Part shown: piece by piece, positions 12,101 through 43,400 of the stretch | How the letters are laid out: every line of letters starts with the position of its first letter | Position numbering within the stretch: the stretch's first letter is position 1 | Assembly (NCBI GenBank): GCA_003342815.1 | Contig: PTEX01000273.1 | Coordinates: 186,001 to 250,000, forward strand | Length of the DNA stretch: 64,000 nt | DNA from: Eudromia elegans | Taxonomy: Eukaryota; Chordata; Aves; Tinamiformes; Tinamidae | Reading direction: 5' to 3' | Program-made: the position numbers and the translations under genes | The notes under the pieces: generated by a model | The model's database searches: none | Told to the model about the DNA's origin: nothing | The model's input: only the letters and a program-made list of their open reading frames with translations

Positions 12101-15100
12101 AGGCAGACCAAAAATATTTCCAGAGGAGTAAAATACTGCCAAATGTGGGTCATGGCAAGTAACTTAATTTCAGAGCAGTTCTCTCCAGACTTTTCTGTTG
12201 CCCATTGAAAAATTAGCAAATACTTTAATTCTACAGGTATGGGAGCACAAGGTGTACTAAACATTTCCAGTTATTTTTCAGCTTTATCCAATTCTGATTC
12301 ACCCAATACCTTTCATGTACAGAAAACTGTGGAAGTAGGGCAGGCTGACACAGCTGTAGACTGAATCCCTCCGGTAGGAAAGTTCATCATCTGTATCAAA
12401 CCTGGAGTCAAAGTCTTCTTCACTGTCTTCAAACTACAGAAGAAAAGAACACAGGTGAAATGACCTTTAAGGAAAGAATTTAGAGAAAGCAGTTTTAGAA
12501 GACCAAAGCCAAACCATCTTATGATATATGCTAAAGAGCAGCAATCCTGGCTGTGTTTTGTCCACCTTCCTGAGGGGAGCACGCTTTAGTAGGTGGAATG
12601 AGTCACTAGGATAAGTTAAAAATTGAGAGTGCTCAGCATTTTGCAGCCTGTCCTCTTTGATTATACCCTAGCCCTAATTTAATGTAACAAATCTATGAGA
12701 CAGCTTCGTAGCTGACTAGGGAAGTTCTCCAGAAGCAGGGACCAGGTAACTTTCCGTTCTGTTTCTCACTCACACCCCCAGCCACGAAGTCCAAAGCAGT
12801 CCTGACCAGAGGCAATTGGAAGTGTTCTCCGCAGAGACAAGAACATCAGTTCATCCCCAGGACCAGGACAGATAGATCAAGACAGCTCTCTGACTGCATT
12901 TCATTATCTCAGTTGTAATAGTCATTTTAGTGTTATCATTTTCCTCAGAAATATGTCAATGTTGCTGAAATACCTTTTCTCATTTACCCAATCACATAGT
13001 CTCAGAGAATTAACCTGGGGGTGATAGAGGAAATCATGTTCTTGTGAAAATATTTTTAAGAATAAAGCGCACAGTATGTTCAGTAGGCACTGAAGAGCTC
13101 TTCAAGATGAACGTGTGCCTCAAGAATGCCATTTCAAGAACCCCACAACATTTTCCATCCTGTGACATTAATTCACAAAGCGGTGTCAATACACATCTGG
13201 CTTTTCAGGGATGTTTGCAAGCTGCTTGTTTGGTTCCAACTTGCATGTATAACCAAAGACACTTTTTCTTTAAGTCATTTTCCCCTGTGTCCCTCTCTGC
13301 AAATACACAAACAAAAGAAGTTTGCTTGAGAATTGTATCCGAGGCCACACACAGAGGTCCTTGCCAAATGATGTGCAGTTCTGCATTAAACCAGATGGAA
13401 CAATATACTCGCAGAAGCGGAGTCTGGAAAAACTAAGGCACAATCAGCATTTGAGATGGTTCTAACTCTAACGCACTCACTCCACCAGCATCTAGATGGC
13501 AACAGATAGCTGTGCCCCAGTGCAGGGCAAGCATGTCTAACCTCATCCAACACATTCATAGAGCTATATCAATTATTAGACAACAAAACCACAGATACTT
13601 ACAGAAGACTGAGCCCCTTCAGAACTAAATCTGTATGCTCCAGAGCTGTTGTATGTCCCCACTGAGCACCGGTAGTCAGGGGACCACTGGCTACTGTGTG
13701 AATTAGAGAAGGTCACACTGCTGCCAGAAGTAATAGCACCATCTTCATAATCATCTTGGTCGTAATCATAGTCTCCATCAGGAGCAATGAGTTCCACAGA
13801 ATTCGGGGGCCTGCACGATACGTTCTCCGGCATGCAGTATGTGGATTCACCGCTTGAAGAGTTGTGCAGACTGACTGAGTCGTGGGCAGGAGGTATAAGC
13901 ATGGTGTTGCTAGCAGCAGGAATTGTTGGCACCACAGTATCATTCATGTAGGGATCTTCTTCTGAGGAATCATCACTTGTTCTGATGCCGCTCGTCCTTT
14001 GGTCAGAGTGGCCGTGCTCACTAGGGTTGGGCGAATCCTTAAACGCATCATCATCAGCTTCAAAGCCTTCATCTACCTCCTCCTCAGGATACGGCTGGCT
14101 GAAGTTAAAGTTGGGCTTCTCAATGCACGCGTTCCCAGTCCGTGCTGCGAGCTCCGCAGGGTACCCGCCCGCCACCGACAGCGACCTCTCGATGTTTCGG
14201 ACACACTCGTCGATCTCATCAAAGTTCAGCGATTCCAGAAACTCCTGGGCTGCCCGGCACGCCTCGTCCTCAAGCCGCCTGAGCTCCTCATCTCGGAGCT
14301 GCTGCAGCCTCTGCAATGAAGCCTCCGTCAAGGACAGCTCCTGCTGCTCCTTCATGCGCTGCAGGTCTTCAATTTCCTTTTCCAGGCGCAAGATTTCCTC
14401 CACCTGCCTGTTTTCCTTCTGCTTCTCCACCTCTCGCTTCAGCTCTGCCTCCTTCTGGGCTTTCTGAACGGCAGCCAGTTCCTGCTGCTTCCTCTCTTCT
14501 TCAGCCTACATTCAAAAAGAAAAAAAAAAAAAAGAAAGCAAAATAAAACTGCAAACCCAGGATTTCTTATTTTGATGTTACTAAAGCATTATACTCCAAC
14601 CATACTGCTCATTTAAAAGGCCCCTACATAGAAAAGAGTTGTAATTTCTCCTACTCACAGACCCTGGAAAACTCACGTATGTGCAGAAAGTCCAGTCTTT
14701 GCCAGAAATTAAATGAAGCATGAGGTGAAAGAAATTTCCATGCAAACAACTGTATCAGGTTTCCTTTGGCCTTTATCTGTCAACTACTGTAAAAAGTTCA
14801 GTTTAAATGCCACAGATGCCTTTATTTAATTACTTGTTTTTTAAAGGCTGGTCTGAGATATTCCAATAAACAGAATGGCAGAAAGCATTAAGTAACATTT
14901 ACCTGTTGGGCGAGACGCTCTGCTTCTTGCCTTAGTCTTTCCCTGAAAGTAAAGGAAGAAAAAAAAAGTTAGCAGATCAAGCTCAGCACAAGCTCATCAC
15001 ATACTTACACTGGGGCAATAGCTACATTTACAGAGATCATTTGCCACATGAAAAGGAAAGCCAAAAATAAGATCACTAAGGATATGTTTATGAAAACGAA

Positions 15101-17969: not shown

Positions 17970-20900
17970 GCCTTTACTCACATATATAAAATAGGCTTGT
18001 GATGGAAGAAGCCTTCTTTAGCACTCTGTATGCAGTCTGTCTTTGCTCTACACACACAGGCTTTAAAAACATACAGAAATTCACATTCAGAAAGGCCCTC
18101 ACCTACTTCCTGAACCAAGAGGGGTGCAAGGATGTGCTAAGCACAGACTATTGCATTTTCCTGAATGGGTGCACTGCAGCTACATTTACATGTACAGGGA
18201 CAGGGAAAATTCACACTGATGGCTAATCATCACAGTGTTGTTATTATTGTCCTTCACATGACATGGACAGGACAGTGCACTGCACTCTCTTCAGTCTGAA
18301 ACCGATGCCCTTTTCTTCTCTCCTAAAATAAGCTATTTAAGGAGCTGTTTAAGGACCCAGGCTGCACAGCTCCTGGGTGCAATTATTCCTGGTCTAGGTA
18401 AGTCATAAACAGAGCTCCGACTTCTCCTGAGGTTCTGACAAGAAGAGTTTCTTCTAATAATTTGGGACATTCACAAATGTATTTGTCTAATGTTTCAGGT
18501 ACTGTCCAGGGTCTAAAGCATTTGAAATTTTCTTGGAAGAAAAGACAAAGATGTCTGGAGGACACATACTGAGGCTTCATGTACCTCAGAAGATGAGTCT
18601 CGAAGCTGACCCACTGAGAGCTCAATTCTGTCATACAAATATCCTCCAAAATTTCATCCACTGAGCAGATATCATGCAAGTGGATCCAGACTGAATGGAG
18701 CCTCTTGCAGAAGGGGTAATTTACTTTATGTGCAAGATTCTTCTAACAGTGATAAGATCTAGCAACCACATTTTAAGCTCTGATCCTCATGTTCGTAATC
18801 TGACAGTGACAAAAAATTCAAGGAGACTCTTTCTCCATGAATAAATTTCCTATTAGTTTTCAGTGCATTAGCCACCAAACTCCTTACCAGAACTATTAGC
18901 TGTTACTATACGGTTTCAAGGGGACCTACAGGAGTGCTCAGCTTCTTCTCTGGTGAAAGGCAGTTACCACCACAACTAAAATGCTGCATCTGTGCAAACT
19001 CAATCCTGTCCCACAGGGTACAAGCAGGAGCTATAACATGCAGTCAGATTATTTTACCTTATTCTTTCCAAGCTGCCATTCAGTGCTTGTATTGTCATAC
19101 AGATGAAGGAGGACTGCACATTTCTCATTTAAGTCTTCAGGCAGAGTTAAGTTTCTCATGAGAACTTTATATCTGTCAATCAGAAAGTATTTGTATTATT
19201 TTGTGTAAGACGGAGAGAGATCTAGTTTTGCCATTTCATTAGATCTTCAATCTGTTCCTCAACAGACAAACATTGCTAGCGATGCCCATGACCCATGACT
19301 GATGTGCACAACTCAGCCTATTTACCTTTTATAAAAGTCTTGAAAGGGCCTTCGGACTGGGAAGCCAGCCCTTCGAATCCTCACCGTCTCCAGCATCCCG
19401 GAATAGCGCAGCTGGTTAAGCACCACAGTCTGATCAAACTGGTCTGGCATCTAAAACAAGCAGGTTCAAAATAAAGTTTGTAATAGCAACGGTTATCACC
19501 ACTGTAATTCGACAGTATTTGTAATGAGAGATGTCAGGGGAAATGAACAGGGTTATATATGAATCCAAAATGCACAAAGACTAAGAAACTAGCTACACAG
19601 TTTCTTAAATGCACTGTCAGCTCAAAACATACAAAAAGTTATCAGCTGCATGGAAATAAAAGGATATTTATACAATATAATCTCTAAAATTAGAGTATCT
19701 ACAGCCAGGTAACCCAATCAACTACCCCATTCCATTTCTCTTATATTTACTAACAGTTACTATACGGGAAAAAAAGATGGAAAAAAAAACCCAGAAAAAA
19801 TAAGTCACTAGCTCTAAATGTGATTGTTTCTTTAGGAGTTGAATTTACATTCTCTGGAGATGTCAAGTGGCAAAGATCTTAATCTAGTGGTTTGATACTC
19901 TTTAAGAAAAAAAACCAAAAATGCAGAAAAGAACTTATGATTTTAATTTTTCAAATGTAATGACATTTCATCTTCTGTTGGTAGTGGTAGAAGTTTGATA
20001 GTGCTGCTTCAACGTTTAAAGAAGCTATATTACAAAGAGCTTCCATTCACTACTAATTCTGAGCGGCAGAAATGTATTTTTCATCTGTGAACAGAAAGAG
20101 AAAACACTGTTTATATGAAATAAGTGCCCCTTCGCTTTCAGAGAGAACTTCTAGCGCCTTTTGTTCATTGAAAAAAAAAAACTAATCTCAACCAAGAAAA
20201 CCTGCAAACCATCATCAGTCGTGCTCCTATTCAGGCTCCTGGGATCCTCCAAGCCACCCGCGCTTTGGCCATCTGCCGAGATAAGCCAGTCTCAGCCACA
20301 GCCACACAAAGCTGCTCAAGTTGGTGCTAATGACTATCCTGCAAAACGCTGACACCTCTGATACTGAGGTAACAACACATGTAAACGGGCTGCTCAATTC
20401 CGCAGCCCGGCTATCCACCCAACGGCCCTCCGGGCCCGCCTGCACCCTGAGGGGCAGGATTAGAGCGCAGAGCAGCAGTAATTCAGGAGGCAGGAGGACA
20501 CATCTCACACGTAGGGCAGCAGTAATTCAGGAGGCAGAGGACACATCTCACACGTAGGGCAGCAGTAATTCAGGAGGCAGGAGGACACATCTCACACGTA
20601 GGGCAGCAGTAATTCAGGAGGCAGAGGACACATCTCACACGTACAGCGAATGGTGTCTACAAACCCACCGCAGCTCCCACTGCAGGCAGGGCCGTTTCTT
20701 CAACCAATGCAAGAGGCATCAAGGCCAAGCTTTGAGCACGGTACATGGGAGGCCTCCTGTGTTATTTGCAAACTGTCTTTAATGACGCTTCTTGTTCAAC
20801 TAAATGGTTCTCCAGATTTTAAATTACCAGGAGTAATTTTAGGAAACCACCGAATCAAAAGTCACTTTATCCAAACCCAACTTCTCCACTGGCTCCTGCT

Positions 20901-23900
20901 TCTGCATAAAGCAAGGAACTCCGTGCTAGCGACGGCTGCTCTGGTTGTCGCCTACCTAACGTCACATATAGCAACAGATCTGCTTCTCATTCCCCTCCGT
21001 AAAAGGCAAAATGTCTAAAACAGAGGGCTGGGATGGCCTCGTGCTCATTAGTTTAGTTGCTGGAGCAGCGTGAACGGGAGTCTCCTACCCTGTCGTGGAA
21101 CCCCATGGTGCAGCGGCTCAAACCCGTTCGGAAAAGCACCTCCGGGCCGACCTTTCCTCCACAGCTGAGAGCGCCCAGCAGGAACGAAAACAACCCGTGT
21201 TTCCAGAGGCGGCCGGTCACCGCGGCCCTCTGAGCGTCACGAGCTGTGCGCGGCCTCAGGACCCGGTCCTGTCGAGCAGGGCTCGGTCCCCACCAGCCTC
21301 CCAGCGCGATGGTGCCTGCCCGAAACCTGCTCGCCCGCCCCTGTGCGGGTGACGGTGAGGGCAGCAAGGAGCCTACACGGAAGCCAAGACGAGAAGCAAA
21401 CCCACTCTTGCCCTGCCTGAGCCGAGGTGGTTCGCGCCCCACGCTGACGCGCAGCAGAACATCTGCTTCCCTTGGACGCTGTCCCCGCTCTCCGTCCTGT
21501 CCCCGCTCTCCACCCAGGGGCTCCGCGGGCCGCGCTGCTCCCGCGACTCGACTCGCATGGAGGAGCGTCCTCAGCGGGCAGGCAGGCGGGTGGGCTATGG
21601 GGGCAGATGCTGCAGCGCTCCCCGCTTCACTGAGCGCCAACCCCCAGCACTCTCAAAGTCAGCAGTCAGCCCCAAGAAGAGCCTAAATCTCCTGCTGCTT
21701 TTTCTTCCCATTCCTTGTATTTCTATCTGTGTTCTGGGCGCAAGGGAAGAAGAAACATTTTCATGACTTTAATCCTGCGTCTACAGTCCTGTTTCCTCCC
21801 TGCGAACTGAGATTGTGCAATAACCGCTTCCCTTCCAAAGCCTGCATTTTTAAAGAAAAGCATGAAATCCTCCCAGGCATCTTAGCATACTACCAGCAGG
21901 GCGACATAAAGATCAGCAGGGTTTTAATCACAAAAGCTTACCCCTCCATTTTACATTAGTAATTATTTTAAATTGCTCACAGGCACATGAGGCTATTGAA
22001 TTGGAGGACTAAACCCTGCTCTGGTGCAGCACCAGAGTTAACAGGAGCAGCAAACCCGGCTTCCTTGCGAGTGAACCTGGAGAGCTGCTGGTAGGGAAGA
22101 CGTGCTGGGCTCTATCTTACACTGCAAATTTGGAAGACCAGGAGACAGGGTTCCTGCTACCCGTAGGCTTTGAAAGGTCCTGCCACCCTGACTGCTAGGC
22201 TTCCCCATGATCTTCCTGTCTTACTAAAAGGGAAACAATATCAACCAAGACATCCCAGGAACACTTCAGCCCTGAGCAATGACAAGAGATGCAGTAAGAC
22301 AGGAGGCGAAGGAGCCCAAATCCCAAACGTTCAAACGCATCCACAGCGTCCCACCCTGACTGAAAAGCACCCAAACACATAACGAGCACGGTGGTGTGCA
22401 CAGTGCCGGAGCACTCAGCATTATGTGTCTCACTACTGGGTGACATATTCCACGCCAGCTAGTTCTACCCCGTGGACGAACAGGATTTCAGCCTCAATCA
22501 CATAAACACAATCACTACAATTACTAACATTAAGCCTAACTTCCAGTCAGCACAACTCCCTCGTACTTAAAAATCAATTGCATATGCATTTCCCTAACCA
22601 GAGCATAAGCGCTGCCTGTACGTACCCCTATTAAACTGCAGACACTTCTAAAATGGAGCGTGATGATGGTCTCCAATGGCAGCACCTATGCTCAGCACAG
22701 CACCAGCAAGCTAAATTTGCAACCGTCTAAAAACTCCACGCTAAAGCACATTCTGGTCCATCTACTGCTATTCCTTCCGACTTGCTAGGATAAATAACTT
22801 TCAGATTTGTATCCAAAGCACATACAGCTGCATTCATCTCTAAGGTCTGGTAAACCTGTGGCAATATTGCTTTAAAGTGAACTTGCTTCATAAACACTTG
22901 CATGAACACTTGCAAAGAAACTGTACTCTGCAAAAATTTGCAAGTAGACAGCAGAACCATAACTGATTCTAAAACAATATCAAATTCACACGATCAAATT
23001 TATAAAGCCAAGGCCAACAGAAAAGGAAGTCAAGGAAGTCAATTTATGGCTTCCAACATTTTAAGAGGTGCAATCAACTTCAAGTCTCTTCAATCTTCAT
23101 GGTTTTTAAACTCTGATTTTTCTTTTTTTTTTTTTTTTTTCTTTCAAGACCGGCAGCACCACAAGCCCCTCTGACACGCACAGCCCCCAGACAACGACTG
23201 CTAAGTCACTTGGGTCAGAGCCACGTCAGGGCACGGAGCAACAGCACCTTGGAATTTCGTACGCTCTAATACCTGCAAGTCAGGACTGCTGTACTCGATA
23301 AAGGTGTGTGTTTGTGGTGTGCTCTTTCATAACACATCTTGCAATTTATCACTTCCCAAATCCAAAAGTCTCCCTTGAATGTGTGCCAGACAGCACCAAA
23401 GCCAAGGCTTTAACGTGACCCGGAGCCTGCGCTGGCGAGACTCTGGCTCCGTAAGGGCTAAATGCCTGCTCAGACCTGCTCGGAGCCTCCTAAAGGGCAC
23501 AGCCGCTGCCCCAAATCACAGCGAGCTGAAGCCACGAGGCCAGACATCCAACACCCACGCATGATTTTCCTTATGGGATAGTTCCTTAGATTACAGTGCG
23601 AGGTGTGAAAAAACAACTTCCCCTTTCCCTGGACAGGACACCGAGTGAGCCCACGTGAGTCACACACACACAGAGCCTTGAGTAACAGTGGGGTGTTTTT
23701 TTTTCTGTTGTCCTTTTTTGTTCTGCAGATCATTTGTTCAACTCAAATAAGGCAAATATCTGATCTTCCCCACATGGGAAAGGGACAATAATGCCTGATT
23801 ATAACAATCTCACAGAACTTATTTAGTCAGGAGGATCAGATCAGAAGAAGGAAAATAAAATAAAATTAAAAGAAGTCCAGCTCTTTGTTTCTAGATTTGT

Positions 23901-26900
23901 TTGAGAGAACTTGAGAAGGACTTTGCTGCCATATCTGGTAAGAGATAGAAATCTAAAGCTACAAAAATATTTTGCAGAAGACAGAGAGAAGAAAAAGGTT
24001 TTTTAAAAAAGGCTTAAAGGCCATTAAAAGTATGCTTTGTTTAAAAACAGCAGCTTTTCCAAATCCATTCTCCTTCACTCCTAAAATATAATCCTGAAAG
24101 TTCAGAGCGCAAGCAGCAGGAATTAAAAAAGTTTTCCTCCTGTTTCTGGTGGAGTTTGAACTTGGTTTTACAGTAATTTTTATTCAGACACAAACATAGC
24201 CCTGCTGCCCAGGGGGACTTATTAAGCCAGATCTTTTCTCAAACAGTCTCCATGGGCTTCTGCTCTTCAACACCAGCCCCACCAACCAGGACTAATGCCT
24301 GAATTTTATCCCAGTTGGATTTGAAAAATACAAATAAAATTACTTCTCATATAAAATCCATCTGAATGGATATCAACATTTTGGCACACCCGTTGTGGCC
24401 TTTCTAAATCCACATTATGATTAATGACCCTTGTCACACAGAGGACTCGGCAGCCTCGACTCCTGCTGAGAATTCAATCCAATCACCTGAAAGGAGGAGA
24501 AGGGAAACGTCTACAGTCACGACTGGAAAATACCCGGCCAGGTAGAGGCTGGTGCAACTTATCTATCAAATCTAGAGATTGCTGGTCACCTTACCTTGAA
24601 GAACTATCCCACACCCCAAGCCATCATTAATTCAGCTGTTGCACCCTTAGTTCTGACCAGGTCTGCTTATTCAGTAGGTTCAACTTCATGACTGCTACTC
24701 TTACAGCATATGGAGCATGCAAGACTGAATGCTGCCTGTCCAAGGTCCTACCAATTTAAGTACATGCATATTTCAAGAAAATAGCTCAAGAAATCCTCTA
24801 TGTTTTCTTCCAGCACACAGCTATTAGTAACTGTAAAAGATTCATACTAAAACATGGATTGATGCTTGCTTTGTTTTTGTACAGGTTTCCTTACGATTCC
24901 AGAACACGGGTGTCCAGAGAGACAAGCACCATGTGAGTAAAGAACTATAAAAAGAAGGAACGTGGTGCAGTGAGTATTCCCATTCTATCGCAGTGCGAAG
25001 TCAAGGAATATTTGGGTAAATAAGAAAAATCAGTAAGTATTTTGCATGTCCAAAATGCTCCTGGTCTTTAGCCTCATGTCTTACAAAAAAAATCAAAGTC
25101 TTTAGAATAGATCACTAATACTGCTGGTGGTAACTTGCCAAAAAATAACGTGGGTATGTTAAATGAACACATATGCCTTACAAAAAATTTGTTGCAAACT
25201 CCAGGCCAGATTTCACTGTTAACTCAATAATTATATGCTGGCTCTTTTATACAATCTCTACAGGTCTGAACGTGAAAGTGCTGCATTTACCAGCAGCAAG
25301 CATTCACACGATTTGCTCATCTTCTCTTTAATTCCAGTTACTGCATCTGATCTGCATGACTCATCTTCCAATGCTGACTATTTCTGATAGGTGACAGACT
25401 TCAGAATTTAGCCACTATCATTCCACAGGTTAGAATTGCTTGTGCTAAAAATAATGCTGTATAAAAGCATCACTGTAATTTTAGACTTCTTCTACTGTAC
25501 CAAGATAGTCAAAGGAGTCAAACTCAATAAATGGATATGAAAAATGTTTCTGCATTTATATTCAGCCTGTCATCCTGATTACTTTACAAGCAAGGGTATC
25601 TCGAGGATATTTGTAGGACAGCAACCATTTCAGAGCTGTGGGGCAGTACACTTATCACACTGACCCTTTGCACTGGTGGTTGAAGGCTTCAGTTAGGACA
25701 AGACATTACTGAATTAGGCCCATCTACAAATGTGTCTCTGTCACATTTCAAGTCCTGTGTTTCTGTAGCAAAGTCAAGAATTAGAACTAGCTTTACAAAT
25801 GGGAGGAAAGATGCTGAAATGATGCTGGCTTCTGGCCATGATTTCAATACTTTCATCAATGATGATGATGAACAAATTCACTGTTCTGGAGCCATTTAGA
25901 CTACTTCTCCTTAGTCAGTGTCACTGCCGTCTTGAATTTCACAGCAATTCCCCTTTTGCTTGGTTTGTATGGACTAAGCTCTACGCTGAGCATACCCAGC
26001 AGCCTTTCTGTGAACTTGCTTTCTAAAGGCATCAAAAGACTGAATTTATCCACCTCTCCCACTAATGCTGATATGCAAACCTAAAGGAATGCTATACTTC
26101 CCCAAACCAACAGTGTGTAGTTACTTACACACCAGCGTCAGAATCCATTCCTATTCCATGAAGTTTTAATGAAATACCATGAGACTTCTATGTCACCTAT
26201 GCAAATGTTTGGAGCTGTGTGTGTGCCTACGTGTTTGGCCGAGTGAGCCCATGTTGCTTGACTATATTATTTAGAGTCCATTGAAATGCACAGCAAGTCT
26301 CACGGGCTGTTTATCCCACAGCAGCAACTGCACGCCCATCCACGTGAGACAGATTATTAAGAGCATTTGGGAAAAGAGGGGATTTTAAGATTTGAGGCAG
26401 CTCTCACAGAGTCTCAGTGCGCTGACAGAAGGTGCAACTCGCAGCCCAGACCCCAGCTGGAAATCTTCACGGACCCTCCTTCTCCACCTGTGCATAATCT
26501 GTTGCCATTTCAGCTAAGGTCATCCTAATTTAAGCCTCCAGTCCCTGCACACTAAACCCCAGCCTGGCCTTATTCTCCCCACATTGTGATCAGTCAGTGG
26601 GCTTCTCCCGTAGCAAATTGATCAGGCTGCCTGAGAGCTGCAGACGCACCATGAAGAAACACGCTGTGAGGTGCTAACTACACGGGCAGCTGCCCTTCCC
26701 ACCAACGCCATGCCCAGACGGCCGACACCGCTGTCACCACCACTCCCGACAACGGTCAAGAGGCAAAGCCACGTGCCCGTGGAGGATGCTGCTTCGCATC
26801 CACCCCGGCCAAATACAAACCAAGCAGATGGGGCGAAGTCCCCACCCCTCCTCTCAGCAGCACCTCTAACTTGCACAGGCCAGGACCCCACCGTACCTAC

Positions 26901-29900
26901 CCTGGTTTATTCACTGCAATGTCGCTCCCTCACACTGGACTTCTAGCTGGGACTAACAGGTTTTTGTTAGCTGACAGTTTATTGACAGGCTGGGTGCATA
27001 AGCCCTTTTCTATATTTAAAAGTGGTCAACCACACTCTAGGACGGCTGCTGTAACACGATTACTTCCACCAAGAAAGCGGGGTTTCGTGTCACGTTGCTA
27101 TTCCTGAAAGGTATGAAGAGGTATCAGAGGATACAAAATTAAGACAAATACACTTGCGAGGACCTGTGCCAAGAAGTGTGTTAGATCCTGCATGACCGAA
27201 GTCTGATACAGCTGTAAAGCCTCTAACCATCCTTTTAAGAAGCTAATCCCTATATACTTCCCATATCTAGGGTTATATTACTACAAGTAATCTCACACTT
27301 CAGAATGTAAAGCCCTCCATGTAGCTAGTTCCCACCTAAGTGCTAACACACTATCATCTCAGCAGTGCATCCCCAGACAGTGTTGCTGAAATATCTTTGG
27401 TCCACATTAATCACGACTCTTTTTGCTTTTCCTGGGTGACATGAAGCTGAGCTTTCAGTGACTGTAGCTCTGCTTGTGGGGAGAGGTTCTAGGGACACTT
27501 TTCTCTTTCTCACTACTGCAAATAAGGACAGAGGAGGACAGGGAAATGGCTTGGAAGAACCTCGTTTCCAGCCACAAGAGCTCCTCATGAGAGGAGGCAG
27601 AAGGACAGAAGACACCAATTCATGGAGCACAAGAAGATGAGAAGAGGAACTGTAAATCCAGGTCTCACTTTATTCTCTGCTCTACTCCTGGGGCACTTGC
27701 CTGCCACTTCATCTGGTTACACTTTCATGCTTAGGACTGCATGCCTGAACACCTTTAGGACTTGAAAGTCCTCTTCGTATGTGGCACTGCTTTAAAAGGA
27801 CACTAAAAAATCTCTAGTAATTAGGAAGTCTAATCAGTGATTGGTGAGGTAGCCAGTGTTTCTCAGCCATGTGATTGCTACTGAAATACTGTGTCCAATT
27901 CTGTGGCGTAATAAAGGAGATGGCTAAACTGGAAAGGATTTAGAGAAGAGCTGTAACTATAAAGATCAGACTGAAAAAAAGACTTGAGGAGCTTACCAAT
28001 GAGAAAGGAAGAGAGCTTGATAATCTGCGAGTAGCTATACTGTGTACCTGAAACAGAAAATTCTAAAATATGGTAGAGAAAGACATAAGGACTATGAAAA
28101 TCAAAGAAAGACATATTCATATCAGAAGACACATTTTTCTCGCTGTGTAACTAACTATTGGAATAGTTAATCCTGGGTGGTAGGACCCTCTAAAACCACT
28201 GGAAACCTTAAAGAAAAACCTTAAAGAAACTTCCTCCAAGCAAGCGTTAAGCATTTCCTTACAGTTTGCCATGCTGTAGGTTAAATGATCTAACTAGTTC
28301 CCTGTATTTATGGAATAAGTACTACTTTTACTATTTAGAAACACTGATGACTTCCTTATCTTCAATATTGGACTTCCTAGAGGCTCAGTTTGTATCAGAG
28401 ACTCCAACAGACACAGTCTAGAACTGCACTCCCAGCGTTCAGGCTCCCTCCTGGCAGTACACAAGCTCATGGGCTACAAAAGCATTTGACAACGCAGCAA
28501 GGGAAGTTTGGCTGAGCCTTTACTGCGGGTGACTGTCTATTAAGAGGCAGGCTGCTTGGATTAAGTCATTAGTTGGCCTGCACACATTCACTGCAAGGCA
28601 ACAAAAAAAAAAGGAGAAAAAGACTCCACAGAATCAATTCCAAATGTTTGAAACAGGAAAAACCCTGCAACAGGCATGAATCATAGCTCTGAAATTTCTA
28701 AGGTTTGAAAATAATAAAAGTTTGAGTCCTTTTTTAATTAAAATAAAAGTGTAAAGTGTACAGGCTTGTTCACTGGTCATGAGGGCTGGCAACTTCCTAG
28801 TTAAAAACCATTAAAACATTCAAGTAATGTTAAAAAGCTAGCACTTGATCATAGGGGGTTTTTTTTATATTAAGGACAAAAACAGTTTTTCCTTCTCTGA
28901 TGTATTCTTCCTCTGCACACAATTTATTCTATTGGTAGACCCTAAAAGAGGCCTATAAAATACAACTCTGACATAATGCAGACTTGTTGCTCAGCATTTT
29001 CTTAAGCAGGCAAAATATTCCAGTGCAACAACTCCTCCAGAAAAGAAATAGAGATGAATTAAAAAACTGCCTCCTGAGAAGCCCTTTGTTTTTCTTCTCT
29101 GCATCTGAAAGTCATAATGGGAAATTAGCCAGGTTTAAATCACAGCCAATATTTGATATGTGTAAATCAGGAAGGCTACAAAATATTCCACTGCAGAGCC
29201 TGGAGTTGCTAGGGAACCGACGCTCGGGCCGCGCTCAAAGAGTGGATTATTCCCATCCTTGGGGAACACATAGGGCTCTGTTGAGCCCCGGCTGCGTGGG
29301 TGCTCGCTGCAAGGGTGCCACGACCCACTGCTCCCACGGCACGACCGGCCTTGGGCATTCCTGGATCACAGAAAGTCACATGAATCCCTTTGGCGAGTGC
29401 AGAAACCTTTTCTCTACCTGGCTTTTCTAGGCATGACAGCCTAGAAAAATGACTCAGCTTCACTCCATATAACCAAGATGCTGATTACTCCTCCATCTGG
29501 TCTCTCAGAACATCCCAGTGCCATTCTGACTTGGGTATTTTCCTTCCAATTTAGTCTATCATGCTCTTGCTCCCTGCATATTTTTACATTATAAATTCAG
29601 AATTTGTCTTGCAGATCTACAACCGACTAGGCAGCAAGATGCAAAGATCAAGTGAAATGTGTACATGTAGGTGTTTGTGTGAAGGAACACAAAATGAAGA
29701 TGCTTGTTTCTCTTTGTGCAGGCCCATTTCACAGGAAAAAGACCACAAGTATTGCTCTCCTTGAGCTGATCTGTTACAGTGCTACGGGTCTTCTCTCTTT
29801 TAATGAAGAATTGCAAAATCTCCTACTAAAGTAGGATGCTTGGATGTTTCTGAGAACCAGATAAGTATCAAGCCTTATATTTCTGGCAATTCTGAAATTT

Positions 29901-32900
29901 CCATCCTAAAACAAACATCATAGTGATCCAAAAGCCTCACACTGGTTTCTTCACATACTATACAAATGCAAAACTGAAGAGCACTTTATTCTCCCCGAAT
30001 GCAGATCAGACTTATTTGTTGTTCTGCTCAGTGCACACATAGGCCAATATCCAAAGCAGGATCTTAGCCACAAGTGGAGAGCTACCAAGGCTTACTACCA
30101 GAGCATTGCTGATAACCACATTTTGTAGAGCAAAACACCATTGTGGTCTCATTGTTATTGATTATATATGGCAAAACTTCCTAGTGAAAGTTGCCATATT
30201 TTTTTTCTGGTAGGAAAAAAATTCACATATTACTTGTTTGTTCCAGTTTCTAGGCCTCTTGTGAAATAAGAATTAACTACATACTAAATTATCTTTGTTT
30301 TAGCAGGATCCAGTATTGCCCCAAATCACACAGAGAGACTGAATGAATTATAAGACACGGTTAAATTAGATCAGGGAACTTAAGATCCAACCACTGCCTC
30401 AGTGAGGTAACGGGCTGCCTCTGCTCGTATCACATACAGCATGTGGGATTCACACGCAGACACTCACCAACAGCCCTTTGTTTCTTTTAAGGCATGTCCC
30501 ATTGCTGCTTAATTACATGAAGCACATACTTAGTTGACTCCTATCCATTTTTTAAGACGATCCTGTGGAGCTGAGGTCTCTTCTTACTGTTTTCTAGTCT
30601 GTTGTGACACATTTAAGTAAGAATATGACTCTCCTCTCCCTCGGAAGAGGATTTTCTCTGTCCATGTTCCCAAATCTCTGGTCATGCTGAGACTACAACA
30701 TTGAGACTCCATCATCACTGAGATGCATTTTCACTGCTGGCATGACAACAGCAGTGTTTCCTTGGGACTGGAGGGCAGTATGGACTTCACGCCACTGGAC
30801 CAACTCATGGACAAAGTCTTCCTTGTCCTTCTGCATAAGCAACTGGCAACGTTGGGCTGTGTACACACTTGTAAGCAGAGCTGCATGTACGCCCGGCTCC
30901 TCCTCAAAGGTGCGTGACAAGGTATCTTGGCTCTACGTACCCCAGCTAATCTGCTGGCCTGCACACCCACAGCTGCACAGAGCCAGCAATAACTTAAGCA
31001 AAGTAATCAGATACCTGCTCAGAGCTCACAGAAGCCAACAAGACGTGCATATGCTTTAACAGCTTTGCTGATATGAGCCATTCGAGGTTGTATGTGCAAG
31101 CAGTAAGAGGAAAGTGGTAGTCCTGAATGGCCAAACAACAGTTTCTTCTCTGAGAAATTCCGAGTCTGGTGTAAGCACACAAAACATAATCCTAATGTTT
31201 GAGTCAGAAACATAGAACTGGCCTTTCTAAACAGGTTTTCTCCTTTTTTTTGGTTGTTTTCTAATTTTCTATTATTTGCTATTGCAATTTCCAAGCTTGC
31301 TAATTCTTTGTTTATATTAAAATGCCTGTGAAGTAATTAAAGTGTGACTCCACTCTTAACAAAAAGCACCCCTTCTCCCATGCAAAGCCTGCTTAGGTTT
31401 TGAGATACTGTCACACTAAGGCTCAACAGTACCTCTTTTTGGCTAAATAAGAACAAATGGCATGACTGGCAAGCTGTAGATGGGCATAGTCAGCCTTTTT
31501 ATGCTGAATCTAGGGCAGCCATTCATTTGAGAAAGCTGATACCAAAGAGCATTTGGCAAATAACTAACTGGCTTTCTGAAAGTGGAAATTTCTCTCAGCC
31601 CATCTATTTTCTCTCAACCTATTCAATTCTGCTTAGCTATAAAAAGTTTTTAGATAGCAGAAAGCACGTATTTACTAGGTACTTAATGCTTAAGAGACTC
31701 TGGTTAACGTACAGTAAGTTTCAAAAATGCCATTATATATCCCATCATGTTGACTGTGAAAATACATCATTAAGAGTTTAGGAACAAACTTGTCTGCTTT
31801 TCCATTCAGCATTATGCAGTCCTCAAAGGTATGTGTGACAATTCAAAGTGGCAGCCAAAACTAAAGAGTTTCTCAGTATCCTGAGCTACTTACATGGCGC
31901 AAAAGATTTCTTGGCTCATGTGCACAAAATAAGCAACTGTGCAGAACTGAATGCCTAAAACAAATGTGGGTTTACCATGTTCTTGGGTGACGAAGAGCAA
32001 AATCACGAGTGCCCAGGGAGGCTGAGGGGTTCCACGGTGTGCGTGGGCTGCAGGAGCGGGGCCAGCATCTGCTGTCCAGCTCATCCACGGCTGAACGGGG
32101 AGTGCGCCCCGGGACCTATGTGCTGAAAGGCAGACTTATTGCTACTAAATTCCAGTTCATGCACTAAAAGCATCAGCTTGCTCTGTAATTCGAGCATTCC
32201 AAGCAATAACAGCATTGAGCATGCAAGTGCCTTGTTTTTTTAGGTTTACAAACTGCCCAGAACCACCAGGATCAGGAAGTTCTAAGCTTGACTTAGACGA
32301 CTAAGGTAAGATGCCTCGACGCGCTTCCAGAGAGCGCTCCCTGTCAAGAGGCGGCTGCAGATGTTTTGAAGTCCTTACAGTTTTATCACAGCAAAGCTTT
32401 TGCACCCTGAAAGTCTTGGCTTGTTCACACTATCCCGTGATTTGTTAAAGAAAAGCCACCTTCCCAAACCAAAACCACATATATATATACACAAACACAC
32501 ATGCATACACACATAGTTTTTCTTATGAGTGTGTACGTATCTATGTATATGCATGTATAAGTATATATATATACACACAGATAATATACAGATACAGTAA
32601 AGGAGAAAAAAAAAGCTTCCCAAAGCCAAACTCGAGCCTTCTCTACCACAGCACTATCTTTTGTCTTTAATAAATTCTGTATTTTGTGGGTAGCTCTGAC
32701 AAAAGACGTGGGAATAGTTGGGACAGTCCTATCAGTAATCTAGCTGTACTGGGAAAAAAAAGATATTGTTACTATGTTTATATTTATGCTGCAAGTTGTA
32801 CATGTTGTTAATAAAATGTTTTGAATAAGCAAATGACAATGAAAACCACAATGCATCTTTTTTGAAACTAAGCAGCTTTAGCAAAAGAAATACTAAATAC

Positions 32901-35900
32901 ATGTATTTGATGTTCCACAAAACAAAAATACTCACATTTTGACCTGTTGCCACAGTTAACGCCCGGTGCTTTAGAGGACCTATCTTAATATCAGTGAGAG
33001 TACAACTAGAAGTTATAAGAAACCCCCTTCCCCGTCCCATAGGCGCTTCATCAGATCGTATCACCTCCGGGGAGATTTGCAAGGCAAATTTATTTAGAGT
33101 TGCTCTTCTTGAGACCAGAATAAAGCTCCCATAGACTTGAGTGATGCAGGATCCAACCCATTCCCTTCGTAACAGGTTCTCTCAAGCATTTTTATCCTAG
33201 TTTTCTCCCCTGTGGCTGAATCCTAGTGTTTGCAGAGGCAAGCCCCTTAAGCGGGAAAGCAAGGAGGAAAGCGCAGATCCCCGGAGCAAAGGCATTCGGC
33301 CTTGCGGAGGGGGAGACTGGTGAAGAAACAAACTGTTTCACATGCCCGGCTGGGGGTTTTGTTTCCTTGCTGGGGCAGGGGGAGGGGAGTTGACACAGAG
33401 CAAATAAACTGCCGTGGTAATATCCCCTCCACTACTGCTACGCATTCTTTCTCGTGCTTTTTGCCGTTTCCCACGTTTCTATGGCGAAAGAAATATCACC
33501 CCAAATGTGGCCCATCAAGTTTCTCCAGTAGGACTGCGGAAGTTAATTCAGGCTCCGGGGTGGGTGCAGTGAGTCTCGTCACGCTCCCCCCGACACACGT
33601 GCCCGCTGTCACTGTCCTGCGCTGCAAGCAGAGCCGAACTGCAGCCATGCCTCACAACACCACAGGAAAGCTCCGTTCCCCGAATTTACACGAGTGTTTT
33701 TCCTACACATATGCCACGAACTGCTGAAGGACAGGAAAGGTCTTTCTCTGCAGAGCAGCTCATCAGTACAGCGCCCATCTCCCCCTCCTTGCACACATGG
33801 CTCTGGTGCTGCTGACTCCTTCCCTGCTCGCTAAACAAATCTCTCCTTTAACTTTCAAGCACAGTGTGGCTTATTAAAGCCGACTGCTTGGCTGGCAAGC
33901 TCTCCTGGCATTCAAAAATACGGTCAGAGCAATAATTTAGCTGTTTTTTCATAAACCTGATTGTGCTTGCTATTATCCTCTTTAAAAGCAAATGCGAGGC
34001 TAGAAACAGCTCCAACTTAGCTCACTCTGCCAAGCTCCAAACGCTTATCTGCTCTCTGTCCTCCAGTCCACTGCAGCACCAAGCACACAAGACGGGAAAG
34101 CTGCTAGAAGACCTGCAAGAATCGCCCCCCTTACCTTTTAAGGCTTCCTCCCCGTTCAGCGTTCGTGCATGGTGAAGAGGCGCGTCCTCAGCAGTGGCAG
34201 CTATGCACGCGCACGCGGACACACACACAACAGGGCTTTCTTCAGCTCACTGGTATTTCAAGTCTTTCATGTGATATCTTTGGCTGTACTTGCTTAATTC
34301 ATTCCTGCTGCTACTCAAAGGAAGTCATGCCTAGCGAGGGCTGGCTCTACAGCAACCGCTCTAGATATTCCAGACTAACAGGACACGGGGACTAATCTCA
34401 CCTTATAAGCATCAAGAATGTAAATATATTTCAAAGCTAGTGAATTCCTAAACCTTCAGAGATAAATTGCACAAAATGCCCTGAGACACAGTTTAGCAAG
34501 GGGTTTAGGAATGGTGAAGTTTTTGCAAGAAACAGTGTTTCCCCTGCAGTGCCCTTGGAGTTTTAACGATGGCTATTTACCATGGACTGTGCATATTCTC
34601 TTGTAGTAGTTACCATGAGAACACAGCAAACAGGATTTGAATGTAAATTGCCACCTAGAGATGCTGGGGGATTTTTTTGTTGTTGTAGTTAAAAGAGAGG
34701 ACTAGTCCCCAAGCCTGATGAAGTACACACTTTTCCATGCACGCATTTGCATGACAATGCGTGCAGTGCAGATGCTCGGTAGAGCAGGCAAGAAGGAAGA
34801 AAAGCCAAGTTTTTTGCTTGCTGCTCACAAAAGGCAAATACTTCAAACTTGTGGCTCACAGCTACAATCCCACAAATGCTCACCCATGTCATAAAATCAC
34901 ATATGCACCAATTCATAGAGTGCAAAGACAATCACTAAGTGTCACTAAATACAGAATTATTCCAGTGCCTTAACACACATGGAGGCAGCAGGACCCTTCC
35001 CGGGTCCGACAAGCCAATTACTGCAGCAGCCACCGTTCTTTTTGCTGCAAAATATTACAAGAACCGGCCCAGAAGAATCAAGTGCACAACAAGTGTTACA
35101 CTTGAAGACTTGGCTGCCCCTATGCGTTTTCCCTTCCCGCAGCGCTGCTGGGCACGGCGCAGGAGCCTCATGGCTCGAGCCACCCGGTTCCGGGTCTCTC
35201 TTCAAACAGGGCTCGGGGTTTACTCTCCATACATCCCCCCTGTCCCGCCCTGCCCGCAAGAGCACAAGACGCCGCCTTTTTGAGATATGAAAATTATTTC
35301 TGTCACTTGTAGGCAGGCTCTTACCAAATAAGCTTGCTGGGAAACTTCGCAACTGTGCACGTAATGCGTGGCAAAACATGCAAAGAAATCTATATGCTGG
35401 GAATCAGATTTGATCTGTGCAATGCAACGCAGTGCAAAATTTCCCCCATCCCCTAAACACCCCGTCCCATGCTTCTATCCCGAGCTTTAAGCACCTCACT
35501 TGCTAAACTCCTTACCCCGCAGTCACTGCAAGATGAATTCTCACGCGCCTTGCTAAGTCAGCCCTGCTTAGCAAACAACAAACCTTGACGGAGGAGGAGG
35601 AGGAGGAGAAGGAGGAGGACATGCCTGTCTGGGAGGCTGCGTGCAGCGCGCACTGACCTACTTCGGTGCCGCCGCGACGGGGACAAAGGCAGCACCGGGG
35701 CTCCCGGCAGCGCCGCTGACGCTGCCCCCGCCAGCGGCACGCACCGCGGGCGCTGCCCCCGCAGCACCAAACCCCACACCCAAGCTGTCTCCGTCTCTCA
35801 GTGCCCAATTCAGATCCCCGCGGCACATCACGGCTGGCACCGCAAGGCCAAGAAGCACTCCTGCCCTCCCGGCCACAGTCTTCATCACGTCTAGCTAGGG

Positions 35901-38900
35901 AGTCTTCGAGGGCCTGACCCAATTACTCATTGAGGCCAGGAACGGCGCGGCTGGGACGCACGCCGCGGGTCTCCATTGGAAGCCATGCAACTCTGTAAAA
36001 CCCAAGGCAACAAGATCCAGGTAGCTGAATTAAGCAGCGTCAGCTGGGCAGGACTCTGCGCCTTACGGCAGCGCCTTCCTGATCAAGCGCAGGAAAGCCT
36101 TATGCACTAATTAAAGATCCAAGAATAAATAGTTTATGTTTGGCCCCGTGCATTTGTGCCACAAGATGCACGAGTGGGCAAACACGGTTTTTCTGGATGT
36201 GGACGTCATGCTCAGAAGGACGAGCCTGAAGCTCCCGGAGCCCTTCACAGATCCTCTCTTACAGCAGTCCTGCTCCTGGCCTCAGGCCCTGGGGCTCGGC
36301 TTTGTCTGCAAGCAGTGGCTGCAGCAACCGGCTGTCAGACAGCCTGCTTAAAGCAAGTATTTGCTGCGAACAACTGAGATTAAAGAGAGATTTTTTAAAC
36401 AGACAGTGAGCTGCTCCTAATGAATGAGCAGTTATAAACCTGTCGGTGACTGCTACCAGACCTTTGCTTTCTACACATCCAACCGGTAGTTGTACCTGAG
36501 CCATATAATCTGCTCCCTTTACTTTCAAAGCATGACAGAGAAGCTGCTTCGATGGCAATCAGGCTTTCCATTCCCTTTCCCTTCTACATAACCAGCCCAG
36601 TTTTCCCTGTGACCTGCCTGCTCCCAGCCTCAAAGAACACTGCAGCCTCACAGGAGATGAGTTCTCCTGGGCTCTACCGCCGAGTAAACCATGAAGCCCC
36701 TTCCTCTTGGGTCCTACCACGTTTTTGAGATCCTCCTCGTTAGGGTTTGCCACTTTAAAGGCTCACAAAGGCATCAGCTCCCCAGTCTACAACCCTGGAG
36801 TGCGCTGACTGGGACTGCCGAATGAAGCATGCGCTGGGTAGAGTTGTAGCGGGATGTGCACTAAAAAGTGAAGCTGTGCTACTTCATTACTTTAGAGTAA
36901 CTTTTTTGAATAAATACTTTGCTGATTTTGTCTGGATGCACTGCAATGCTGTGTTGGAGCCGTGTGAGAACATCCTTGAGTATCAGTTTCCCTCCCTGCT
37001 TTTTTTTCCAGATTTCATGTCAATGCTGTCCCCTGTATAGAATCATTTCACTTGCACCACTGTCTTCACGCATGTTTTTACCGAGATCCCCCTACAAGGC
37101 AAACTCAGTGACTCGTGTTTTCAAAGCTCAAAACACCATCAGTGTAACCGCAGCCCACGCGCCAGGTCCCACACCGCATCCTCTGAATTTGTGCCTGCTC
37201 CGCACCCCACGTGCAGCCATCGTCACAGAGCGCACCGAGCCGCTCGTGCACTGCCCCTTCGCGCCACGCTGCGCACCCAGTCGGGGCTGAGGCTGCTATC
37301 AAGCTGCGCTCCTGTTTATAACACTTGAGAGCTGTTTCAGGAGCACGATTTTGTGTCAGACGCCAAGCACCACAGCTTTGCACCCTCCTCCACGTTAGGG
37401 GACGTGCTGCTTACTGTTCCACGGCGCGTCGTGGCTACTAATGGCCTAGGCCTCAAGGCGCACGGCAGGTGCCCGTGGCCATACCTTGATCCCCTTCGCT
37501 GCCTATGTCCCTGGCAGCTATGCTAGTAATCTTACTGCTTCGACAGCAGTTTTCCCAGAATAAATAAGCACCGTGATGACAGGTTTTACACCTAACCAGC
37601 AATAAGTCTCACAGGATGTATTACAGACTTATTCCTACCAGCCTTCCTTTGAATTGCAAAGTTATTACTAGTTTTACTCTTTCTGTCACTCCTTGTGACC
37701 CTTTCCCCTGCAGTAGGTTTACAATAGAGCTTTAATTTTGTCTCATTTCTGCACCTGACTGAATTAAACTGCAAGATTAAAAAAAATATAAAAATAACTG
37801 CGGGGAAACAGAATTGCCCTTTCAGATCAAAAGCTTCACAGAAGAGGGTTTGCATCTTGCCAGTGGAGAGCCTGTCCCTGCAACAGAAGAACGACAGCAA
37901 CGACAAACGTGCCGAATGGGAGGTGAGCAGAGGCACAGGAAAGAAAGAGAGTCCAAATCGAGAAAGGAGCTTGCTCCAGCCTGAGGTTAACTCCTCTCGA
38001 CCAAAAGGATTTCTGCTTCCAAGACAGCTAGCGCGGACAGTTCACATTTTAAATTTACCCTGAAAAGTCTCCAAGTGGAGAAAAGCTTAACAACTTTCTT
38101 GAAAGCTGGAAGAAACCATCATCTGAATGGTTCTAAAATTGGCTGTAACTTATTTTACAACATGCTTATCTTTTTCCCCCTTAAGTTGTGCAAACATAAG
38201 AGAGGAGGACAGAGGGCAAAAGGATGAAGCAAGGTCTTGGCGTGGGGAGCATTATGAGATGGACGAGCAGGCAGGAAAAGAAACATGAGGAGAAGAACAG
38301 AGAAAGATGTGTCGGAGTTCACCAGGATGAAACGATACACAGTTCTGAATACCGCATTGAAGCTAAGGGGAAGGGAGAAGAAAGATCCTTCATTAGCAGA
38401 AAATACTCATTAAGCATACCAAGTGGGGCAGTTTCGGCTTTATGGCTAGTTCCGAACAGCCTGGAAACTGGGCACACAGATCCACTGATTGTTTGGGGGT
38501 CTACCAAGGATTAATGGGACCTCTGTTCCTCCGTCTGCGGCCTGTTTGCTGAAATGCCTTGTGACAAAAGGTCATGGACTCTATGTGCTCCCTTTAGGAA
38601 ATTGCTCTAATGAGTGCAGATCCTGCTTTGATATGTTAATGTCTGGTGGCTTACTGCATATGGCGAATTGTTTTTGCTTGCCACTGTAACATATTTCAAA
38701 ATTAAACTTTTGATCAAGTAGAAACCAAATAATTTCTGCAAATTACCATATCTCTTATCCAACGTGACTAAAATTTAACGTCTAGCAGAGCAGTGTCTGC
38801 TGTACGTCCCGCCTTTCAAAGCTCTGAATTTGTCTTCCATTTGCTCAACCTCATTCACCTACAGAATTCAAACACGCTTATGAAGTAAAATAGCTCTTGG

Positions 38901-40415
38901 GCACCACGTTTCTTCCCCTCCAGAATTAAAAGGATGCTCAATGATAGGTGTGTCACCTATTTATGCCAAATCCAGAGGGCAATGAGCAGCTTGGGAGGCT
39001 TTGCTCCTCATGCCACAACCTCTGCTCTCTCCCAGTCTCCCTTGTCCACGTCTCCTTTAATGCACCTCTTTCAGAAAAGCAATTGCAAGGGCCCTTGTAC
39101 TCGCATCATTTGCTGTTTTGCAAGCAGTGTTTAAGCTAAATACTTTCTAAAGGGTGGTGTTTTAGCATTCCAGATCACTCTCACTGTCATTATGCCGAGC
39201 AAAAGCATGTTGTTAGTCATATCTTGCATCCACGGAATCCAGCTGAGCTGTGGAAGAGCTGAATGCAGCTCACAGCCCTGCTCCTGCACCAGCACTCTGA
39301 AAGCCAATGCCAGAGTAGGAACGTGTTCACTGCTGGCGACACCAGCATTAAACACCCCACTACATCCAAGACTGCTTTAGAAAGGTAAGAACAGGAAAAG
39401 GTGCTGGGGCAGGAAAAAGGGCTACAAGCACAGGAATTCTCAGGCACCCTTTCCTGCAGTTTCTGGATTAGTAGTAATTCTTTCATCTCGTAGTTTATTA
39501 ATATGTTTCTACTGAAGTTCAAATACAGTTTTGTAGCTGCAGAATGGTATTTCTATCTACAAATTGCAAAAAGATACATCACACCCTATCTATGAAACAG
39601 AGATGGAAACCAATAGCAGTGCACACTAGAAAATATAAAACAGCAAATCCCCAGAATGAATTCTGAGAACATTTCCCCGAGTGAAAATACCATTGACAAG
39701 TATTACACAGGCCCTTTCCTTCTCACTCCCTATCAAGTCTGTTACTGATCCCACAACAGGTAAAATGTGCGACACTTTTTCTCTGCTAGTTTCAGGTAGG
39801 ATTTCTTATTTGGTAAAGCCACTGGATTAAATTAAATTTACAACCAAACCAAAACAAAAAACAAGGATTTGCACCTTGTGTTAGATTTCACTGACAATGA
39901 AACACCTTAAACGTGACAATCTACAGTAATTTCCCAATCTGTTCCTCCATACAATCCTATAATTGCACACGGACAACTGAGGCTGTGGCAAGCTCCTTTA
40001 GACTGTCTGCTTTCATAACAGCCGACTTTTTTTTTTCAATGCTAGTAAAATGTACATGTGGATACAGTGGCACATGCCAAATTTAGCAGTGACGGACCAG
40101 TGTAGTGGGAAACGACTGCATGAGCAGCAGTGAATCTGGAGTGGGAACTCGGTGGTTTCCTTGCTATGCAAATGCAGCCTAATGCAACAAGCACTTGGTC
40201 CTGGCATCAACCATAGCAAATCCTTGCAACTTTTGCATACAGGGATGAGATCTCTCCTCCGTGTGTCTTTGGCTACCTGGTGCCTGCAAGGCAAGGCCCT
40301 CAGCAAGGTTGTCAAATGCACAGGGCAGCATTCTACCCTCCTTTTGCAGAAATCTTTGCAACAGGTCATTTATCAGAGAGTTTTGAACAAAGACCATTTA
40401 AAGAGTAACCGAAGG

Positions 40416-40450
<35 letters not shown>

Positions 40451-43400
40451 TGTGAGTAAGATAAACAAGCCTCTCGGTTCCAACACACAATGCCTCTTCC
40501 TTCAATTGACCAGAAGAAGTTCCTATTCAAAATCGGAAGTAATAAGAACCGAATGGCCGCAGGGGGAGCGGGGCCACGGGNNNNNNNNNNNNNNNNNNNN
40601 NNNNNNNNNNNNNNNNNNNNNNNNNNAAACAAATAAAAAAAAAAAAAAAAAAAATCCAGAAACTTTCTCTGCTGAAGGGCCTTCACCTTGCAGAGCCTCC
40701 TATATCATGAGTGCAGAATGCTGCCTTCTGCCACATGCAGAAGGAAATAACCAGATAGGCAGGAAAGGACGAAACATTTAGAAAAGCCAGGTGCAATTTC
40801 AAGTCTTACCTTCTGCACATTGGGTTTGATGCAGCGGACGAAGAAAGGATTTGAAGAACTCAGCGTTGCCATTAAAGAATGAAGCGATTCCTAAAAGACA
40901 GTTCGGAAGACTGCACTTTACAAGGGCACGTTTTGTACAAGCAAAACAGTGAAGCAAAAGTTCTCCGAGTTTAGCGTTGCAGACAACGTCCACTGCAACA
41001 CCTAGTGGCTCCCACCCGGAATTACAACCATACATAAACTATACAGTGAACAAAGAGAATAAACACACACATGTTGGTTTCCTCCATTGATCCCATTGAT
41101 TATAGCCATCACCACTACTTAACAGTGATCAAGATGTAGAGATTGACATGAAGAAATCTGTTTAGGAGGAAACACCAGCAAACTGGAAACTTGATGCTAT
41201 GAGTGTCTTTAGAATGACTATGTCTGCGGATCTATGTTCTCAAATCGTTGTACCCATGCAAGTCACACAACAACTCCTTAGGGAGTCTAAGGCAAAGCTA
41301 AGGTAAAACTAAAGTAACGACAAAGATGTAGGGTGACACAAAGGTGTGAGGGTGACAGAGCCCTGTCACAGGCTGCCCAGAGAGGCTGTGGAGTCTCCTT
41401 CTCTGGAGATCTTCCAAACCCGCCTGGATGCCACCTTGTGCCACGTGCTCTGGGTGCCCCTGCTGGAGCAGGCAGTTGGACTAGATGATCTCTAGAGGTG
41501 CCTTCCAACCTTAACCGTTCTATGATTCTGTGTAGGAGGAATCCTTTCATTACAATTGTCTCTCACACATTCATTTTCCATTTTCCCTATGATCAACAGC
41601 ATTCTGTGCACAAGACGTTATTTCTCCCCCCTACAATCTCTATCTTGCTTCACAAGGACACTGTGGTGATAAATATGAGCCAACAGAGGACAAAAGAATT
41701 AAAATGTTCCTCTCCCCTTGAAAAGAGGTATTTTAAAGGTGCAGTAACCATTGCTTTATCAATACTAAATTTTCAAACAAAATCTCGCAAATCAACAGAA
41801 ATTGAGTAAAGGATATAGTGGTAACATCTTCCTGCAAGATTACTGTTAACAGCATTAAGCAAATATTAACACAGTAATTCCATTTTATGACTAACTCCAT
41901 TTAACAATAAAAAGAAAGATTATAAGGTTCAAGTGAAATAAATCCTGGTTTTATAAGTCCAAATGAGCCAATACACATTAGACTACTAGTTATCTGGAGA
42001 TAAAAATCACAAAATCCCTCAGCCCTTCTTCTGATTATTATTTTAATTATACACCCATCCCTTTCTCTCCTGAGCCATCATTCCATGTCTTATGCCAGTT
42101 TGCCTCATTTTGCATCATGAAGTATGATACATTTTAAAACTGAAGCCTTATGTTTGCTTTGCAGAGATCCAAATCACTGCACAGGAGCAGAAGCCAGGCT
42201 CTAAAAAGCCTGGAGAGCGAGTGATGCTGATGTTTTATCCACAGAGATAATACAGAGCGAGCTGCCAGGGAGATATAAAATTCATTTTTTAAAGGAGCAG
42301 CAGTGTGCGTACCCACCATGTGCTTCTGAGTGTGGAATGGTAGCCTGTTACATGAAAACCTTGCTTTAATCTGCAAAAAAAGGGCTTTCTTGATGATTAA
42401 ACGTGACGCGATAGAGGCAGCAGGCAGAATGATGGCTATGCCCAAGAACCACTTCACAACCACGACAGCAAATTGTGGAGTGACTGGGAATACGATTGGG
42501 ATAGTTTTGTGGTTTGTTAGCCCACAATGGCTTGAAGTTGGGGCAGCAAATATTAAAATAGTAAGTAGGTATGAAGACTAATATTTTCCTGTAGAGACAA
42601 ATATTTATTCCTTAAAATTTAAAGGCTTCATTTTTATGAAGCCTATGCGAACATTACACTATCTACACACACTAAGCCAATACTCAGATATTCTAGCAAC
42701 ACAAGTTACCACTTGTAGAAACTGGAGAGTCAGTCACTCTAAACAAGTGAATTATTCTGCTCTCACATTCGACTCCGGATGCAGATGGCCAGATTCTGCA
42801 CGATGCTACACAGCTTTCAGCCCATGTAAGGAGCCTGTGCTAACTGGAAGTCAGTCCTGCCTGAAGCAGTCATACACTAAAGCAGGCCATCTCCAGCACT
42901 CCCCTCCAACCTCAGCTATTCTATGTTCATCTCTCAGGACGGCATCAGCGAGCATCCCGAATCAAGGATTTCAAAAGAAAACTGGTAAGTCAATAACAGA
43001 TCAATCTGTTTTAAGAATTCTGCTTTCACAGTTTCATTCTTCCCATCCTAAACTGGGATGAGACAAACTACTCCTTGGAAGGCTGTAAAAGAAAGCGAGA
43101 GGCTGTGCAGAGGAAGCAACCAAATCCTTTGGGGCGACACAACGTGAAGATCAACCTCTTCTGAAGGAGCACTGCTGCCAATGTGCTATTGCAGCTTTAT
43201 TTAAGAGGCAGCGATGCTTTGATCTGCTGTTTTATCATGCTTTCTGCTGTCCATGGCCCCTGGTGGAGCACAGGAGTCTACTCTACACTGCGTTCTACCT
43301 GGCAGGGTGGATGATATAAAAATACAGCTGATTTTTACATGGTAGCATTTTAGATTTGCTTTTCACAGGTACGTATGACTATATGGAAACAGTACCCTCT

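Follow-up and report, generated by a model that had tools for sequence, protein, structure and literature searches.

We found that the MYO10 gene of the bird Eudromia elegans has, directly in front of the codon for Met644, a phase-0 exon border at the end of a large intron holding three CpG islands, and that among the readable paralogs of this genome a methionine at that place is confined to MYO10. We read this as the layout by which mouse makes two proteins from one gene: an intronic promoter would give a transcript whose untranslated first exon is spliced to the acceptor at 19450, and translation would start at Met644. We put the probability of this reading at roughly 0.63. Judging from the layout, birds can probably make a headless Myo10. 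Headless Myo10 is already known from mouse, and our finding is a probable further case of the mouse layout, modest in novelty; the CpG islands in the intron and the contrast between MYO10, with Met, and its readable paralogs go beyond the first-pass annotation.

The Met644 exon of bird MYO10

MYO10 is read on the minus strand of the window, by which we mean the whole stretch of 64,000 nucleotides that was analysed. The window belongs to contig C194 of an assembly of 944 Mb in 723 contigs, and the avian keratin family (PF02422) had 26 matches in this assembly out of 34 scored candidates, every one above the cut-off, against none in 14 control genomes. Other sauropsids also carry this family, and it is together with the genome size that it points to a bird. 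A motor exon of 81 bp (40890-40810, minus strand), the equivalent of mouse exon 19, is in phase 0 at both ends, codes for 27 residues corresponding to human 617-643, and ends in AAG/gtaaga, the slash marking the splice border. It is followed by a giant phase-0 intron of 21,359 bp (40809-19451, minus strand; GT at 40809-40808, AG at 19452-19451), the equivalent of mouse intron 19. The next exon, of 125 bp (19450-19326, minus strand), is equivalent to mouse exon 20; its acceptor reads cttgttttag/ATGCCAGACCAG... and its 3' end AAAAG/gtaaat. The first codon of this exon is an ATG (19448-19450, minus strand), the putative headless start codon, which stands directly after the acceptor, and the TAG of the acceptor forms an in-frame stop immediately 5' of it.

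When the two exons were joined, the resulting 68 residues aligned without a gap to human Myo10 617-684 (PDB 5i0h) with 62/68 identical, and the ATG fell on chain residue 644, so that this codon is Met644. In the chains of PDB 5i0i and 5kg8, where the numbering is shifted by two, it aligns to position 642. The best match of the motor exons was myosin-X (5i0h, E 1.4e-37, versus 5.2e-19 for myosin VIIa), and the Pfam family MYO10_CC was found at 13579-14505 of the window (minus strand, in an open stretch of 309 codons), which identifies the gene as MYO10. Part of this coiled-coil open stretch, 13969-14409, is GC-rich enough to count as a CpG island.

The first-pass annotation had the upstream exon leaving in phase 0 and the downstream exon opening with ATG at 19450 directly after its acceptor, which is correct to the base, and our measured intron agrees with its figure of about 21 kb. 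It had reached residue 644 by counting codons, and the alignment to 5i0h upholds that number. Its exon numbers, 16 and 17, are valid locally in the window; their counterparts in the mouse gene, published with 41 exons, are 19 and 20. Two further features of the intron were seen. A run of 46 N bases (40581-40626) is found past the exon 19 donor, some 180 bases downstream and near a long T run (minus strand), and a 44-base tandem repeat in four near-identical copies (20472-20643) precedes the Met644 exon by about 1 kb.

Comparison with mouse headless Myo10

The mouse Myo10 gene has 41 exons and its headless isoform begins at exon 20, according to PMC5725431 and PMC6345916. The former describes a start site approximately 8.6 kb into intron 19 that gives a pure 5' UTR first exon spliced to exons 20-41, with a protein expected to begin at M644. 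It also reports two further starts predicted by NCBI, approximately 13.9 and 29.5 kb into intron 19, and one NCBI-predicted start adds a single Met in front (PMC5725431). The headless form is approximately 165 kDa in neural cells, versus approximately 237 kDa for the full-length form, and has been proposed to act as a natural dominant negative or as a scaffold (PMC5725431). The statement in the first-pass annotation that a rodent headless Myo10 starts at this residue is borne out by this source, which has mouse transcripts arising from intron 19 with initiation at M644. Two mouse headless transcripts are confirmed, and PMC6345916 reports that one of them, NM_001353142.1, lacks exons 20 and 21, which means that even in mouse not all headless transcripts use the Met644 border. 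The same source reports that deletion of mouse exon 19 preserves the reading frame (PMC6345916), as expected of the 81-bp exon found here.

The bird gene and that of mouse headless Myo10 are the same gene, and in both a large phase-0 intron precedes an exon that opens with the same residue. In mouse the headless transcripts and protein have been demonstrated, whereas the bird case is known here from gene layout. The bird intron, at 21.4 kb, is shorter than that of mouse, which must exceed 29 kb since one start is placed approximately 29.5 kb into it. The positions within the intron also differ, with the bird islands lying 3.2-5.3 and 19.1-19.8 kb in and the mouse starts approximately 8.6, 13.9 and 29.5 kb in. 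No headless isoform in birds is mentioned in the titles and abstract openings of the papers found by searches on headless Myo10 and on chick or avian Myo10, which is weak evidence of absence, nor in the available portions of PMC7968926, PMC3583005 and PMC4539528.

Myosin paralogs in the same genome

Of 53 candidates scored in a whole-genome search with the 68 residues, 20 were matches, and 17 places were taken as genes. Read from the DNA, an acceptor at exactly the Met644 codon boundary is present in 6 of the 17; the donor side of this border was read for MYO10 and the C91 gene, and the acceptor side only for the other four. The residue that opens the shared border is Met in MYO10, Ala in C91, and, in the myosin genes C202, C118, C114 and C424, Glu, Lys, Leu and Leu, respectively. 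Six genes have no intron at the Met644 place (C315, C41, C99, C18, C135 and C633), and in five the border lies further on: three codons later in C217 and C173, a few codons later in C45, and by eye in C480 and C336. The residue equivalent to Met644 was readable in 13 of the 17 genes and was Met only in MYO10, the other 12 having Ala, Glu, Lys, Leu, Ser or Gln. The intron border is thus common to several myosin genes, and Met at this place is, among the genes that could be read, found in MYO10 alone. A first codon for Met would be unremarkable by chance alone; its weight comes from its being the published start residue and from its absence from the readable paralogs.

The closest paralog is a MYO10-like gene at C91:6297204-6298412, which is 79% and 67% identical over two matched stretches. 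This gene shares with MYO10 the 81-bp exon, phase 0 and the same border. However, it has Ala in place of Met, an intron of 1,003 bp, a GC-AG donor and an intron CpG o/e of 0.17. A Met644-type start is therefore unavailable in this paralog, and the MYO10 intron is 21x longer. With the same border, no Met and a short intron, the C91 gene provides a natural contrast to MYO10.

The first-pass annotation had held that the avian gene keeps the headless layout. The border, the residue and an intron with CpG islands do match, but the border alone says nothing on use, because the same acceptor position is common to five other myosin genes here. The word "keeps" moreover presumes an isoform older than the bird-mammal split. 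If birds do make headless Myo10, the isoform would be at least that old, and the chick embryo would be a system in which to study its neuronal role.

CpG islands in the intron

We scanned 224 kb (contig 106001-330000) with a 200-base window in one-base steps and defined a strict island as at least 400 bp with a GC content of at least 0.55 and a CpG ratio of at least 0.65. This gave 12 strict islands, of which 3 lie inside the MYO10 intron, so that the border directly before the Met644 codon is preceded by a large intron with room for a promoter of its own. Island A (20968-21730; 763 bp, GC 0.630, o/e 0.76) lies 1.5-2.3 kb upstream of the Met644 exon, island B (35475-36127; 653 bp, GC 0.605, o/e 0.76) lies 4.7-5.3 kb into the intron, and island C (37042-37597; 556 bp, GC 0.559, o/e 0.82) lies 3.2-3.8 kb into it. 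All three are candidate promoters, concrete places in which to seek one, and B is the candidate that we would favor. In a search that passes over simple repeats and very frequent words, no further copy of island A was found in the assembly, and none of island B apart from two matches of 31 bases in a simple run.

Among sliding windows of the length of the intron, 95 of 4053 held three islands, and every one of these overlapped the intron; none of the 3198 windows clear of the intron did so. Across eight sets of thresholds the Poisson P for the island count lay between 0.003 and 0.10. The count was reached in 2 to 5% of sliding windows, among them those of the intron itself. The clustering of islands in the intron is thus suggestive and only moderately significant, and it is not strong evidence because the intron is also richer in GC than its surroundings (0.451 versus 0.413).

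Of the nine strict islands outside the intron, one is in a coding exon and several are in other presumed MYO10 introns. The longest (contig 327542-329066) holds at 328204 the motif MDNF, a MYO10-type start, and an exon at contig 298315 presumably carries the next part of the protein. This serves as a positive control, a partial one since so short a motif, of four residues, can also turn up by chance over this length of DNA. What is presumably the first MYO10 intron holds a further strict island (C194:300286-301014; 729 bp, GC 0.61), about 2 kb upstream of the 298315 exon and possibly another start site. In chicken, predicted CpG islands are reported to mark non-methylated DNA well (PMC3583005).

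Candidate first exons

Donor-like sites were scored with a generic nine-position table that was not trained on this genome, so that the ranks are rough. With a cutoff of 3.5 we found 12 sites in the intron on the minus strand versus 15 on the plus strand, the latter serving as control. This indicates that donor-like sites are not enriched on the strand of the gene. The two joint best sites on the minus strand score 7.33, above the true donors of the two exons that flank the intron (6.85 and 4.72). One is at 34135, which would be the last base of a candidate first exon (AAG/GTAAGG), 1.3 kb downstream of island B; the other is at 24595. Another minus-strand site, at 34402, scores 6.72 and is 1.1 kb downstream of island B. 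Inside island B itself are minus-strand sites at 35516 (GGG/GTAAGG, 4.36; last base of a candidate first exon) and 35500, and in island C there is one at 37485. No site above 3.5 was found on the minus strand in island A or from island A to the Met644 exon.

In the mechanism that we propose, the canonical first-exon promoter would give full-length myosin-X, and a second promoter within the equivalent of mouse intron 19, most likely near 35-37 kb of the window, would give a separate transcript. The untranslated first exon of this intronic transcript would be spliced to the acceptor at 19451/19450, and ribosomes would begin at Met644, yielding a protein that lacks most of the motor but has the neck and tail. 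We infer that one of the islands has promoter activity (B or C being more likely than A), that an exon uses the 19450 acceptor, and that the use is neural.

Alternative explanations

One alternative to a promoter within the intron is that the islands may be enhancers, orphan islands, or starts of noncoding or antisense RNAs, and not a source of transcripts that include the Met644 exon. Of the 12 strict islands, nine sit outside this intron, and the donor-like sites are moderate in islands B and C and absent in island A, all of which would fit. However, in mouse the starts in the equivalent intron are described as spliced to the Met644 exon, with the exception of the one transcript said to be without exons 20 and 21. 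Searches of the window against Rfam gave no match at the gathering threshold, and none of nine of the longer intron ORFs matched Pfam at E 0.01, which also argues against noncoding starts. We regard this explanation as unlikely, if one to be taken seriously, and islands of this kind would in any case be compatible with a headless isoform made from a CpG-poor promoter. Slightly less probable in our view is a coincidence around an old intron: the border would be ancient among myosins, the motor fold would account for the retained Met, the size of the intron would have other causes, and birds would make no headless form, which would be a gain of rodents or mammals. The same acceptor position in five other myosin genes speaks for such a coincidence. 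The conserved Met needs no special cause, because the whole stretch around it is conserved (62/68 identical to human), and it is mouse in which the cited papers, in their available portions, describe the isoform. Against it stand the Met, found at the border place only in MYO10 among 13 readable genes, and an intron that is 21x the length of that of the closest paralog and holds CpG islands.

A headless protein might also be made without any spliced intronic exon, either by internal initiation at Met644 or from an unspliced transcript running from island A into the exon. Island A is indeed close and has no good donor either within itself or further downstream, and the acceptor TAG would place an in-frame stop just before the ATG. 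Nevertheless, separate spliced headless transcripts are described for mouse in PMC5725431. Internal initiation would moreover face the many AUGs that precede Met644 on the full-length mRNA. We consider this route very improbable.

Assuming instead an intronic promoter and a spliced untranslated exon, as we favor, the isoform could be ancestral to amniotes. Met644 and the swollen, island-bearing intron would have arisen after the split between MYO10 and the MYO10-like gene, so that a shared intron became an isoform switch with a promoter of its own, and birds would use island B or C, or perhaps A with a short coding leader, in neural tissue. We offer this only tentatively, at somewhat less than even odds.

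A speculative coding first exon of this type lies at 21106-21089 (minus strand). It has an ATG in a good Kozak context and six codons, MGFHDR, which end at a weak donor (AGG/GTAGGA, 2.18) and are in frame with Met644. This leader is probably due to chance. Counts of frames running from an ATG to a donor were 15 on the minus strand, MGFHDR among them, versus 5 on the plus strand.
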